Source of the DNA: Chloroflexota bacterium
GTDB taxonomy: Bacteria; Chloroflexota; Dormibacteria; Dormibacterales; Dormibacteraceae
DNA length: 40,796 bases
Reading direction: 5' to 3'
Assembly (NCBI GenBank): GCA_005883575.1
Contig: VBFH01000042.1
Location: 1 to 40,796 of the forward strand
Part shown: in pieces, positions 1 through 8,449 of the stretch
How the letters are laid out: each line of letters begins with the position of its first letter
How positions within the stretch are numbered: position 1 is the stretch's first letter
Notes under the pieces: generated by a model
The model's input: the letters and a program-made list of their open reading frames with translations, nothing else
What the model was told of the DNA's origin: nothing
The model's database searches: none
Made by a program: the position numbers and the translations under genes

Positions 1-734
1 TTCCTGCTCGCTGATGGAACCAGCGCCAAGGCGCTGACCGGAATCGACGACCACTCGAGGTTCTGCGTCTCCGCCCGGCTCATGACCAGAGAGCGGACTC
101 AGACCGTCTGCGACGGATTCAGTTCAGCTCTCAAGGCGTATGGCTTCCAGCCCAGGTCCTGACCGACAACGGCAAGGTCTTCACCGGGCGCTTTGCTCAG
201 CCACCAGTGGAAGTGCTCTTCGACCGGATTTGCCGGGAGAACGGGGTCGACCACATCCTCACCCAACCGCGCTCGCCGACCACAACGGGGAAGATCGAGC
301 GCTTTCACCGCACCCTCAGGGTGGAGTTCAACACCAGGCAGGTGTTCCACAACCTGAAGACCGCACAGGAGGCACTGAATGAGTGGGTGACCTACTACAA
401 CACGCAACGTCCGCACCAGGCGCTGGGCGACCTGACACCGGAAAGCCGCTTCAATGCCACTGAGCGGCAGCCAGCGGATCCGCGTACTCCTCGGCCAGAA
501 CGCAACGGGGAACAGGGGGTCTGCCGGAGGGTAGCCAGTAACGGCGTTGTCAGCGTCGACTACCAGCAAGTCAGTGTTGGCAGGAACTACGCCGGCGGTT
601 CCTGCGACGTGCTGGTGACCGACGGCCTGCTTCAGTTCTGGGTGGGCAGCGAGTTGCTCAAGACAGTCGCTCGCACGGGCACTGGCGTGGTCCGCAAACT
701 ACACGCCAACGGCACTGCGCCGAGGTCTAGGTGA
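1..734 (+). pseudogene. IS481-type transposase, frameshifted and cut by the window edge
   Basis: DDE-type integrase-core transposase of an insertion sequence. Frame 1 reads from the edge with the first catalytic aspartate (TGIDDHSRF) and ends in TGA at 160-162. The rest continues in frame 3 with the second aspartate (VLTDNGKVF), the glutamate (GKIERFHRTLR), the typical YNTQRPHQALG stretch and a C-terminal extension ending at 732-734. The frame change lies near 145-156, where one missing base would restore a YGLPAQVLTDNG-like reading. The N-terminal helix-turn-helix lies outside the window. The element is probably inactive unless the shift is a sequencing error. Assignment to IS481 rather than IS3 rests on the C-terminal extension and the single-ORF style. 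Confidence 0.8.
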
Positions 735-3489: not shown

Positions 3490-4800
3490 TCAGCCGGTCC
3501 AGTTCGTCCCGGGCACCGGCAGGTACGGCAGAGGGTCTGTCACCAGGTCGTTCACCCGCAGCTCGAAGTGGACGTGGGGCCCGGTCGAGTAGCCGGTCGA
3601 GCCTTCGAGGCCGATGAGCTGGCCGCGCACGACCTTCTGGCCGGCCGCGGCGTTGGTCTGCTGCAGGTGGCCGTACAGCGTGGCGATGCCGCCGCCGTGA
3701 GCAATGATCACGTAGTTGCCGTAACCAATCGCGCTGTGTCCCACGGCGACGACGACGCCGTCGGCCGCGGCCATCACGGCGGTGCCCAGTGCCGCTGACA
3801 GGTCAACGCCGGTGTGGAAGTGCTTGTATGGGCCGAGCGGCGGTTCGAGCGCGAAGGTTGTGGGACCGAATCCCTGCGTGACCTGGAACTTGACCATGGG
3901 CCACGACAGCGAAAGCCCTGAGATCGTCTTTCCGAGAGGAAGAGCGTGGCTGACGATGGCCAGGCCGGTGCCAACCTCGGCCTGCGCCCAGGCCGTCTGG
4001 TACGAGCGCAGGATCAGGTCCTGCTCCTGGGCTTCGAGAAGCTGGGCGAGGTTGGTGGTGACATCGGCCGGCTGGTTCAGGAGATGGTTCTTGGCGGTCG
4101 TCAGCTGCGTCACCAACCCGGTGAGCTGACCGCTGACCACGTCTTGCTGGGCCATGACTTCTTGTAACGAGGTGAGGTTTGCGACCAGCAGATCCCTCGC
4201 GTTGGTCTCGCGATCGAGATCGGTCTGCCGCGCGTCGCGGTCGGTACGAAGCTTCGCAAGGTCTGCTTCCAACCGGTCCTGCATCGCATGCGCACGCTGG
4301 CCCGCGACCACCGCGTCAGCGGTCGCGATCAATGCCTCCCGCAGGTTGCCTGTCCGCGCGATCAACAGCCAGAACGAGTCGGGCTGCCTGTAGATCGCTC
4401 GCGACATGGCCGCCAGCTGCTGCTTCTCCACCTCGATCCTCGCCTCGGTGTCCGCGATCTCGGCATCGAGCCTGGCGATCTCCGCTTCGAGGCTCGCGAT
4501 GAGAGCTTCTTCCTGAGCGACCTCGGAGCTGAGCGACTGCTCGATGCCTGCGAACTGGTCGAGGGTTGCCGAGAGTCGATGCTGAGCGGTCAGCGCATTG
4601 GCGATGTCTCCGCCAAGCCGTGTCTTCAGCGAGTCGTAGGCGGCCTGGTTGGGATCGGTCGTCGCGGCCGGGCACGAAACGCGGCTGCCCGAAGACACGG
4701 TCTGACTGGAGCATGACGTGGAATCGGTGGCGCTCGCGCTCGAGACCTGGAGCGTCAGGATGGCGGCAGCGACGGTCGCCGCGCCAAGCGCTCGCCTCAC
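3490..4800 (-). CDS. Secreted coiled-coil M23 (LytM) peptidase, FtsEX partner
   Basis: A 436-residue murein hydrolase of the EnvC/CwlO type. A short N-terminal hydrophobic signal segment (AATVAAAILTLQVSSASA) is followed by a long charged coiled coil (about 60-240; EALIASLEAEIARLDAEIAD) and a C-terminal M23 domain with both zinc motifs intact: HTGVD (His329, Asp333) and HVHFE (His409, His411). The start is taken as GTG at 4798-4800, which overlaps the TGA of the upstream ftsEX gene (GTGA) and implies translational coupling. In known systems FtsX binds such coiled coils outside the membrane and FtsE ATP hydrolysis switches on peptidoglycan cleavage. Here the M23 domain is active-looking, so the protein could cut the wall itself, unlike E. 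coli EnvC, which acts through amidases. Confidence 0.88.
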   Translation of the reverse strand: MRRALGAATVAAAILTLQVSSASATDSTSCSSQTVSSGSRVSCPAATTDPNQAAYDSLKTRLGGDIANALTAQHRLSATLDQFAGIEQSLSSEVAQEEALIASLEAEIARLDAEIADTEARIEVEKQQLAAMSRAIYRQPDSFWLLIARTGNLREALIATADAVVAGQRAHAMQDRLEADLAKLRTDRDARQTDLDRETNARDLLVANLTSLQEVMAQQDVVSGQLTGLVTQLTTAKNHLLNQPADVTTNLAQLLEAQEQDLILRSYQTAWAQAEVGTGLAIVSHALPLGKTISGLSLSWPMVKFQVTQGFGPTTFALEPPLGPYKHFHTGVDLSAALGTAVMAAADGVVVAVGHSAIGYGNYVIIAHGGGIATLYGHLQQTNAAAGQKVVRGQLIGLEGSTGYSTGPHVHFELRVNDLVTDPLPYLPVPGTNWTG

Positions 4801-6668
4801 GCGCGGGCCTTGCGGAAACCCAGCATCGCAGTGGCCGTGCCGAGGACAAGCCCGGCAGTGATGACCGCCGCGAGCACGTACTGGACGGACGTGGAGTCGA
4901 CCCCGGGAAGGAGCTGGAAGTAGACCGTGGACTCGAAGCGGACCGCCAGCAGATACGCAGCGGCGATCAGGGCCGCGGCCAGGGCGCCGGCCAGGGCACC
5001 GGTCGTGAGCCCCTCGACCACGAATGGACCACGGAGCATCCAACTCCTCGCCCCAAGCAGCCGAGTGATCGCGACTTCCTGGCGCCTGGAGGCGGCGATG
5101 CCACGCATCGAGTTGGCGATGACGACATACGCGACGATCGCAAACAGGAGCACGATCCCGCCCGCGATTCCGCCCGCCACGAGGGCGAAATGGCGCAGGC
5201 GCGAGTACGTGTCCGGGTCGTATGAGGTCGGGTAGCTCGGGTCAACGGCCGGGTCGCCAACCACCGAGCTGGCCACCCCCCCGACCTGGGTGACCAGGCG
5301 AACCCGGACGTCCATGCTCGCCGGGAAGGGGTTGGTCGAGCTGAGGCTGGCGAGGTTGTCCAAACCGTGACGCTTGCTCGCCTCCGCCAACGCTTGCTCC
5401 GGCGAGATCTCGGTCACGGAAACGACACGTGAGTCGGCCGTGAGCTTCGCCTTGAGCGCCGCTACCTCGTCCTGGGTGGCCCCGTCCGCCAGGTAGACGC
5501 GGACCATCGACGCCTCGCCGGCTTGATCCATCGCCGCCCTCTCGACCGCGACCCCGACGAGCGCGATCGTTCCGCACAGCATCAGCAGCAGCGCGATGGT
5601 GCCGATCACGGGAGTGGTCAGCCGCACGTCTCGACTCCAGCTCCGCAGGCCGCTGAGCAAGACGAGCCGGTAGGCGTTGGCAGTGAAGGCCGCTATGCGC
5701 CGCCACAGCGCAAGTTGAGGCGTCTTGGCAGCCCTGTGCGGCCGCGGGCGCGCGGGGATGATGATCCGCCACCACGCTGAGGCAGCCGGCGCAGCGACGG
5801 TGTGCCCGTTGCCGTTGGCGTGCCCGTTGCCATTCGAGCTGCCGTTCGCATGTCCATTGCCGTTGAGCAGAGGCCGGCGTGCTCCGTTCGTCATCACCTT
5901 GGCGCTGGGCAGGCGCAGGATCCGGCTCGCGGGGAAGGTGTGTCGGTGCGACGCCACGATCACGGTCGTTCCCTTCGCGGCCGCATCCTCGAGCAGCTGC
6001 GTGATGATCGCGGCGTTCTCCTCGTCCATCGACGCCAGCGGCTCGTCCGCGAGCAGCACCCGGGGCCGGGTTGCCAGCGCCCGAGCTACCGCCACCCGCT
6101 GCCGCTCGCCGGCCGAGAGCTGATGTGGGTACGCCCGGCGGCGATGCGCCAGCTTCACTGATTCGAGAGCTTCGATCGCACGCTGCTTGATCGCGCGGTT
6201 CGGGACAAGCGGGTCCCTGACCTGCAGCGCAACCACGATGTTCTCCAGGGCGTTCAGCCGAGGCAGCAGGCGCTGCTCCTGGAAGACGAAGGCGACGTCG
6301 CGGCGCAGCCCGCGCAGGCCGCGCCTCCACCTGCGATGCAGGCCACGTCCGCGCACCCACAGCTCACCGGCGTTAGGGCGCAGCTGCCCGTGGACGAGGC
6401 GGAGGAGGGTCGTCTTGCCGGAGCCGCTCGGGCCGGTTACCTCGACAAGCTCGCCCTGGGCGACGGTGAGGTTGACGCCTTTGAGGACCGGGTTGCGACC
6501 GTACGACTTTGTGACGCCGACGAGCTTGACCGCCGGCGGTGCTTCGAGCTCGCCGTTCGTCCCCGGGCGCTGCCTGGTCGCCGCTTCCTTCTTCGCTCGC
6601 ACGACCTTCGTGCCGTCGCCGTTTTTGAGCGCGCGAACGCGGCCAGTAGTTGCTGGTCGGCTTCCCAC
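4797..6668 (-). CDS. ftsEX: FtsE-FtsX single-chain fusion (ABC ATPase + permease)
   Basis: A 623-residue protein joining the two normally separate FtsEX subunits. The ATPase half (about 46-260) has Walker A GPSGSGKT (79-86), Q-loop VFQEQ, signature LSAGERQR (184 on), Walker B VLLADEP (Asp208/Glu209) and the H-loop SHR. A low-complexity Asn-Gly-His-Ala linker spans about 269-290. The FtsX half has TM1 near 352-376, an extracellular loop of about 120 residues, then three more TM segments ending LGFRKARA. Separate FtsE is about 225 and FtsX about 300 residues, so both halves are full length. The GTG start at 6668 has GGAG upstream. The gene is translationally coupled to the M23 peptidase that follows. 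Confidence 0.9.
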   Translation of the reverse strand: MGSRPATTGRVRALKNGDGTKVVRAKKEAATRQRPGTNGELEAPPAVKLVGVTKSYGRNPVLKGVNLTVAQGELVEVTGPSGSGKTTLLRLVHGQLRPNAGELWVRGRGLHRRWRRGLRGLRRDVAFVFQEQRLLPRLNALENIVVALQVRDPLVPNRAIKQRAIEALESVKLAHRRRAYPHQLSAGERQRVAVARALATRPRVLLADEPLASMDEENAAIITQLLEDAAAKGTTVIVASHRHTFPASRILRLPSAKVMTNGARRPLLNGNGHANGSSNGNGHANGNGHTVAAPAASAWWRIIIPARPRPHRAAKTPQLALWRRIAAFTANAYRLVLLSGLRSWSRDVRLTTPVIGTIALLLMLCGTIALVGVAVERAAMDQAGEASMVRVYLADGATQDEVAALKAKLTADSRVVSVTEISPEQALAEASKRHGLDNLASLSSTNPFPASMDVRVRLVTQVGGVASSVVGDPAVDPSYPTSYDPDTYSRLRHFALVAGGIAGGIVLLFAIVAYVVIANSMRGIAASRRQEVAITRLLGARSWMLRGPFVVEGLTTGALAGALAAALIAAAYLLAVRFESTVYFQLLPGVDSTSVQYVLAAVITAGLVLGTATAMLGFRKARA

Positions 6669-6757: not shown

Positions 6758-8449
6758 CTAGGCGCAGCCGCTCAGGTGAAGCGGCGCCGGTGTCACGGCG
6801 ATCACGAACGCACCACCAGTCGGGATTGCGAGGACGAGCCGGCTGCCGTCGGGCTCGTCGCTCACGAGCGCACTCACGGCGCCGTCGGTGGTGATCTGGC
6901 CGGTCACCTCTCGCGGAACGTAGACGACCGTTGAAGGGTCGCCGGCTTTGCCGCGGGCGTGCATGGTGAAGTGACCGTCGGATGCGTCGTAGTGATAGGT
7001 CGCGGCCGGGTCGTCCGTAAGGCGGGGGTAGACCCTCGCCAGCATCCGTTCGCGAGCGACCCGCAGGCATCCGCTCGAGTCGCCGGGCGTCTCGGGTGGC
7101 TTGAAGACGCCCCAGGAGGCGCCGCTGCTCTCCTTCCATGGCCAGAACGCAAAGCCCGTGCGGTGCCTCTCCTGTTCGGCGAGCTGCGACTTCAGCAGCG
7201 TCCCCTCGTCGCCCGGGGCGCTCCCGAACTCCGACACGAAGAGTGCGGCACGCATGGCTCTGGCCTCGCGCTCGCCCAGTGAGTAGCTCTGGTCGTAACC
7301 ACCCCACGGATAGCTTTTGCTGGACACGATCTGAGGGGCGAGGTGATCGATCGTGTAGATGTGCGTGTAGGCGTGGAGCGCGAGGACGATATTCGCGTAG
7401 GAGCTCACCGGCAGGCCTAGATGCGTCGGGAAGTCGGTCACCTCCCTGAGCAGGCCGGTGTCGAGAAAGATCAGATGGCGTGCGTCATCGGGGCCCAGGT
7501 CACGGTACCCGCACGGTGCCGGCATGAAGAATCCCGACCAGCAAGGAAATCCGTCATGGACTCCTGTGATCGCGTCGATGGCCCGTCTATAAAAAGGAAA
7601 CAGAAGCAGGTCCTCGAATCCCGGAGGCAGGTTCCAGCCCAGGAGCGGCTCGTTGTAGATGCCGTAACCCGCGACGGCCGGGTCGTCACGAAAGCGCTTG
7701 GCGATGACGGCGAGGGCGGCGAGGTATTCGTCCTGAATGCCGTCGCGGTCGTACCAGAAGTTGGTGGTCGCTTCCAGGACCGCGGGGTTGATCTCGCGGT
7801 TGTTTGCATACACATGGGACGGAAAGCCGTCTGTGAACGTTGCCCATCTGGGGGCTCCGCTGTCATACGAAAGGTTGACCGTCGAATCGCCTGCGCCGAC
7901 GAAGTGCGAGTAGGCGTTCTGATGCATGTCCACGATCACGTACATCCGGAGCTCTCTAGCCCAGTCAACTATCTGCGCGACGCGGTCGACGTAGGTGGTG
8001 TTGAACCTCCCGCGCTCGGGCTCGAGCAGGCTCCACGAGATCGGCAGCCGGATCGAGTTGAAGCCGAGACCCGCCATCGCCTCGAGGTCTTTCCGGCACA
8101 GCGGTGGATACTTGCTTGCGCGCGAATTCGCCGGACACTGGCCATTCTCGTAGGCGGACGGTTCGAGGGAAAAGACCGGACCGCTGCCTGGGCCGAACTC
8201 GAGCAGCGAGGCCGGGATCGCTCCCTGCAGCAAGACCATGCGGCCCTGTTCGTCTGCGATGTAAGGCGTCGCCCCTGAAGGGTGGGCGACGTGCAGCCAT
8301 GGCAGCGCGCCGGCCGGTCCGGCGGAGGCGTTGTGCGCCGGGGTGACAAGAGTCGCCAAGGAGACAAGCAGCGCGCCCGGAAACGTACCCAGCGCCACGA
8401 CCAAGACGACCAGGCCGCCCACCACGCGCCGGATCACGACGCGAGCCAC
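6758..8449 (-). CDS. Secreted or membrane-anchored GH5 glycoside hydrolase
   Basis: A 563-residue retaining glycosidase. A hydrophobic N-terminal segment (residues 8-36) acts as signal peptide or anchor. The TIM-barrel landmarks of family GH5 are present: FNSIRLPISWSLLEP (130-144), VIVDMHQNAYS (171-181), acid/base glutamate in YGIYNEPL (Glu267) and nucleophile in FVSEFG (Glu407). The DMHQxxYS motif and C-terminal beta domain resemble endoglycoceramidase-like GH5 members rather than plant-wall cellulases, so a glycolipid or surface glycan is a possible substrate. Its 5' end overlaps the small membrane gene upstream by 16 bp, indicating co-transcription. Confidence 0.85.
   Translation of the reverse strand: MARVVIRRVVGGLVVLVVALGTFPGALLVSLATLVTPAHNASAGPAGALPWLHVAHPSGATPYIADEQGRMVLLQGAIPASLLEFGPGSGPVFSLEPSAYENGQCPANSRASKYPPLCRKDLEAMAGLGFNSIRLPISWSLLEPERGRFNTTYVDRVAQIVDWARELRMYVIVDMHQNAYSHFVGAGDSTVNLSYDSGAPRWATFTDGFPSHVYANNREINPAVLEATTNFWYDRDGIQDEYLAALAVIAKRFRDDPAVAGYGIYNEPLLGWNLPPGFEDLLLFPFYRRAIDAITGVHDGFPCWSGFFMPAPCGYRDLGPDDARHLIFLDTGLLREVTDFPTHLGLPVSSYANIVLALHAYTHIYTIDHLAPQIVSSKSYPWGGYDQSYSLGEREARAMRAALFVSEFGSAPGDEGTLLKSQLAEQERHRTGFAFWPWKESSGASWGVFKPPETPGDSSGCLRVARERMLARVYPRLTDDPAATYHYDASDGHFTMHARGKAGDPSTVVYVPREVTGQITTDGAVSALVSDEPDGSRLVLAIPTGGAFVIAVTPAPLHLSGCA

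Follow-up and report, generated by a model that had tools for sequence, protein, structure and literature searches.

A conserved single-chain FtsE-FtsX paralog encoded beside an M23 peptidase gene in one family of Chloroflexota

FtsEX is a type VII ABC transporter with the composition FtsE2X2 (PMC11627006), its ATPase (FtsE) and permease (FtsX) being made as two polypeptides. In a 40,796-nucleotide contig of a Chloroflexota bacterium (VBFH01000042.1; the whole stretch analyzed, hereafter the window), one uninterrupted open reading frame (ORF) appears to encode both. Is this a genuine fusion, does it represent the division transporter of the cell, and what might such a protein do?

The coding sequence occupies 4797..6668 on the reverse strand, which also carries all of its parts given below, and encodes 623 amino acids from a GTG start to a TGA stop, with 0 internal stops. 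A K/N-rich N-terminal extension (residues 1-44; 6537..6668) is under weak constraint (pN/pS 0.76), apart from its conserved first residues, VGSRP. Because VGSRP and its variants open the conserved N terminus in relatives, the GTG start is supported. The FtsE-like nucleotide-binding domain (NBD; residues 45-254; 5907..6536) is recognizable from its motifs (Walker A GPSGSGKTT, Q-loop FQEQRLLPR, signature LSAGERQR, Walker B VLLADEP and the switch His in SHRH) and from Pfam (ABC_tran, residues 62-212, 118 bits). It is joined by a linker of variable length among relatives (residues 255-321; 5706..5906) to an FtsX-like permease half (residues 322-623; 4800..5705) with four predicted transmembrane (TM) segments, which hydropathy places with TM1 before the extracellular domain and three after it. 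The FtsX extracellular domain (FtsX_ECD, PF18075; residues 389-476; 5241..5504) scores 51.8 bits in Pfam against a cut-off of 23.5, and the FtsX C-terminal permease domain (residues 505-620) scores 34.6 bits. PF18075 includes the X-lobe, a feature of the FtsX extracellular domain that is absent from other type VII transporters (PMC11627006). By analogy, RRQEVAITRLLGARSWM, between TM2 and TM3, would be the coupling-helix region. Single-sequence structure prediction of the protein gave a mean pLDDT of 43, too poor for use. The 623-residue ORF and its Pfam domains agree with the sequence-only reading that both halves are complete and lie in one polypeptide with an N/G/H-rich linker, and a fixed 1:1 ATPase:permease ratio is a prediction that follows from the one-chain architecture.

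An open frame of this kind could be an artefact of assembly or sequencing, in which an indel erased the stop codon that kept two genes apart. The source genome is a draft assembly of 127 contigs, and the copy in one relative (G008, locus L033) is disrupted by a break inside the permease. The other relatives refute this explanation. Rather than a stop at the linker position, the same uninterrupted ORF is present in 30 separately assembled species from eight genera (g1, g2, g3, g4, g7, g9, g10 and g11) of one Chloroflexota family, so that the architecture which the sequence-only reading had proposed looking for in relatives does recur there. The linker takes 17 different lengths (24-97 residues over 26 loci), all of them in frame, and the codons of both NBD and permease are under purifying selection (pN/pS 0.20-0.25). 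The chance of an artefact is thus negligible, and the FtsE-FtsX fusion is real, conserved and of single origin. Its distribution is narrow: none was found outside the family of the window among 110 genomes of the class or in phylum samples of 400 and 300 genomes. Among 346 genomes of Actinomycetota, the phylum of Kribbella, two matches spanned both halves, as did three among 331 genomes from the phylum of a deltaproteobacterial MAG; all five had a stop between two ORFs. The 348 genomes from the phylum of Sporosarcina gave no fusion at the threshold used, and the thresholds of these searches outside the family would miss very diverged fusions.

Between the last conserved NBD residue, P254, and W322, the full linker in the window comprises 67 residues, and its Asn/Gly/His-rich core (residues 269-289, NGNGHANGSSNGNGHANGNGH; 5802..5864) comprises 21. 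The initial estimate of about 20 residues therefore describes the core and not the whole linker. Acidic residues are almost absent from the linker, and K+R make up 12% of the window copy. The motif AAYGGNAAYGGNCAY (NGNGH) occurs five times in the 3.6-Mb genome, and three of the five copies sit inside the fused linker; NGNGH is therefore not a proteome-wide feature. Within the genus, pN/pS is 0.46 in the linker, compared to 0.21 in the NBD and 0.20-0.25 in the permease, and thus the frame has been maintained across a loosely constrained spacer. An internal translation start yielding a separate FtsX was considered and rejected, as the linker holds no conserved start codon with a ribosome-binding-like site. 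Post-translational cleavage inside the linker may occur.

In a 42-locus tree built on concatenated NBD and permease sequences, all 16 of the fused genes sampled form one clade (support 100/98), with one change of state and with the separate genes of G021 as sister. The separate-gene state is seen in outgroups, with a GTGA overlap in G021 and ATGA in the more distant G029. Judged from these sequences, the fusion had one origin, in a copy that was already duplicated and whose two genes were separate but overlapping. At the G021 junction, the FtsE-like protein finishes in a K/N/G-rich tail, and the TGA of its gene and the ftsX start codon (GTG) share bases as GTGA. From such an arrangement the fusion could plausibly have come about in one step, with a small indel joining the two frames via the existing tail. 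A tree of the M23 partner, in the drawing of which support labels are affected by re-rooting, groups the same fused-type loci together, but places G021 within the group and G025 beyond it, and so leaves the order of G021 and G025 unsettled.

The partner gene lies at 3490..4800 on the reverse strand, overlaps the fused gene by GTGA and encodes an M23 peptidase (PF01551, residues 328-423, 105.7 bits in Pfam). A hydrophobic, signal-peptide-like stretch at residues 4-22 precedes a helical, coiled-coil-like region at about residues 50-250, and the coupled next gene is thus the M23 coiled-coil partner that had been expected. The zinc-site motifs HxxxD and HxH are intact (HTGVD and HVHFE), and complete M23 copies in the fused clade retain HTGxD (HSGID in G025) and HxHFE. 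Like EnvC, which is FtsX-bound in E. coli (PMC7668044), the partner combines a coiled coil with a C-terminal M23 fold. In contrast, EnvC is a degenerate amidase activator with no catalytic residues in its LytM domain (PMC7668044); with its zinc-site motifs intact, the partner should itself be an enzyme. In this it resembles PcsB, CwlO and RipC (PMC11627006), where the coiled-coil protein is itself a hydrolase with catalytic residues, although the catalytic domain of the partner is M23, the fold of EnvC. An M23 gene adjoins the fused gene in every inspected relative with downstream sequence. In most genera, the module comes after a GAF/PucR-type regulator, a class-V aminotransferase and often a GH5-family gene, while in G024, G018, G021 and G025 the conserved part is just the fused (or split) gene and M23. 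Since the neighborhood otherwise varies among relatives, the M23 gene is the constant partner. In the window, a GH5-like protein (cellulase family) is encoded upstream of the fused gene at 6758-8449 on the reverse strand, and one occupies the same place in G001, G003, G010, G030 and G033.

The source genome (G000) carries three FtsEX-M23 modules. The canonical module has separate genes in the order secA-prfB-ftsE-ftsX-M23-S41 (locus L010, contig C71, 1641-4481), a second ftsE-ftsX-M23 module also has separate genes (L009, contig C38, 4215-7134), and the third is the fused one. The canonical order recurs in G022, G026 and G020 and, beyond the family, in G050. Genomes in the family of the window contain 2-5 FtsX_ECD copies, mostly 3; those of families elsewhere in the class contain 0 or 1. 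The best NCBIfam match of the fused NBD is the FtsE equivalog TIGR02673 (3e-55; cut-off 264.85 bits), yet at 187.2 bits it clearly misses the cut-off, which the canonical copy passes (285.5 bits) and the second narrowly misses (250.7 bits). By these scores, the fused gene is the most diverged of the three and not a standard division gene. For the FtsX equivalog NF038347 (cut-off 225 bits), the fused protein misses at 119.4 bits, and the canonical copy also misses, narrowly, at 214.4 bits.

These observations bear on what the fused protein is for. The sequence-only reading identified it as the division transporter, and it could indeed be the main division FtsEX of the cell that has merely become fused, given that an FtsX extracellular domain and an M23 partner are both there. 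This is improbable, because the genome, like those of relatives, retains a canonical prfB-linked FtsE/FtsX/M23 module whose genes are separate, because the FtsE of that module clears the equivalog cut-off which the fused NBD fails, and because genus g5 has the other paralogs without the fused gene; the identification is not upheld. A second possibility is that the protein is a non-catalytic scaffold, a poor ATPase whose one task is to anchor the M23 enzyme at the membrane. Every sampled fused member has the signature LSAGE, with the first Gly replaced by Ala, compared to LSGGE or LSGGQ in nearly all unfused proteins and LSGGERQR in the split sister G021, and the D-loop GNLD has given way to an ASMD-type sequence. 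Given these two changes, the ATPase cycle of the fused protein may be different. However, the fused clade shows no variation in Walker A and B (including the Walker A lysine and Walker B glutamate), the Q-loop Gln, the switch His or the signature Ser or second Gly, all of which make contact with ATP in the E. coli complex (PMC11491553). Together with constraint on the NBD equal to that on the membrane part, this makes a pure scaffold unlikely.

Fusion of an NBD to a permease in one chain also raises the possibility of a MacB/LolCDE-type exporter that does not control a wall hydrolase. An N-terminal NBD followed by a four-TM permease is the layout of MacB (PMC5985334), and the fused protein shares this domain order and a presumed homodimeric state. 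It differs in that the MacB periplasmic core domain (MacB_PCD, PF12704) has no Pfam match in the protein at E 0.001, while FtsX_ECD is present; in that a hydrolase partner, the M23 gene, adjoins it rather than an efflux adaptor; and in its N/G/H-rich, variable linker. The best solved homologue of the fused NBD is pneumococcal FtsE (6z4w). For the FtsX half, the closest solved structures are of FtsX, with 8idb_C best (2.1e-12), then 8ymc, 8hd0 (8hd0_C, 8e-12), 8tzj and 8i6o; in this comparison with solved structures, LolF matched at just 0.0015 and MacB gave no match. Moreover, the tree places the fused genes among FtsEX paralogs, most of which have M23 partners. An exporter is therefore highly improbable. 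Like FtsEX, the fused module consists of an FtsE-like NBD, a four-TM permease with an FtsX extracellular domain and an adjoining coiled-coil wall-hydrolase partner. Unlike FtsEX, its ATPase and permease are one chain with an extra N-terminal extension and the LSAGE signature, it scores under both NCBIfam equivalog cut-offs (FtsE and FtsX), and it is an extra paralog beside a canonical pair.

We therefore propose, with a probability of roughly 0.72, that the fused protein is a lineage-specific FtsEX paralog acting as an ATP-driven, MacB-like homodimer that controls its own M23 endopeptidase. In known FtsEX, closure of the two FtsE subunits on ATP is relayed to the extracellular domains via the coupling helix and membrane helices; the extracellular domains hold the coiled coil of a hydrolase or of its activator (PMC11627006). 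By the same scheme, two 623-residue chains would dimerize and their paired ATPase domains would close on ATP in the cytoplasm. Closure could then travel along the coupling helix and TM segments of the FtsX half and reach both FtsX extracellular domains, which would grip the secreted M23 partner, the product of the overlapping downstream gene, by its coiled coil. This in turn could release the active zinc endopeptidase domain of the partner to cut peptidoglycan. The flexible linker would occupy the place of the FtsX cytoplasmic N-terminal tail. Because the N terminus of FtsX is cytosolic (PMC11627006), the fusion is topologically easy and results in the domain order of MacB. We infer dimerization, ATP-driven control of the M23 enzyme and a role other than core division, and likewise the function of the protein and any benefit of fusing.

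We speculate, tentatively, that the fusion could be an insulation device, predicted to stop the FtsE-like ATPase from pairing with other FtsX paralogs. Such a role would be in keeping with the divergence of the Q-loop, signature, D-loop and coupling helix. If so, a family whose cells each keep at least three FtsEX-M23 modules could run separate programs of wall cutting without cross-talk. The open-access literature searched gave no account of an FtsE-FtsX fusion occurring in nature, with subscription literature mostly outside that scope. FtsEX is known as a 2:2 complex made from two genes. A naturally occurring one-chain form, whose one origin can be traced and whose unfused sister survives, ties it to the MacB layout. 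For structural studies, the fused chain also supplies an FtsEX with its stoichiometry already built in, and a family with multiplied FtsEX-M23 modules makes cross-talk and division of labor between paralogs testable.

Three smaller observations concern other copies and the edge of the window. In the disrupted copy of G008 (L033, 2420-2680), the permease half has a frame break and lacks the TM1 region, which could reflect an assembly error or a pseudogene. At the left end of the window (207-734, forward strand), an ORF resembles an integrase-core transposase fragment when read by eye. More diverged, separate FtsEX-like paralogs occur at L129 (G025, contig C45), L130 (G034, contig C101), L132 and L151 (both G029) and L137 (G036); of these, L132 and L137 have GPSEAGKTT as Walker A and gave no match to the usual signature pattern.
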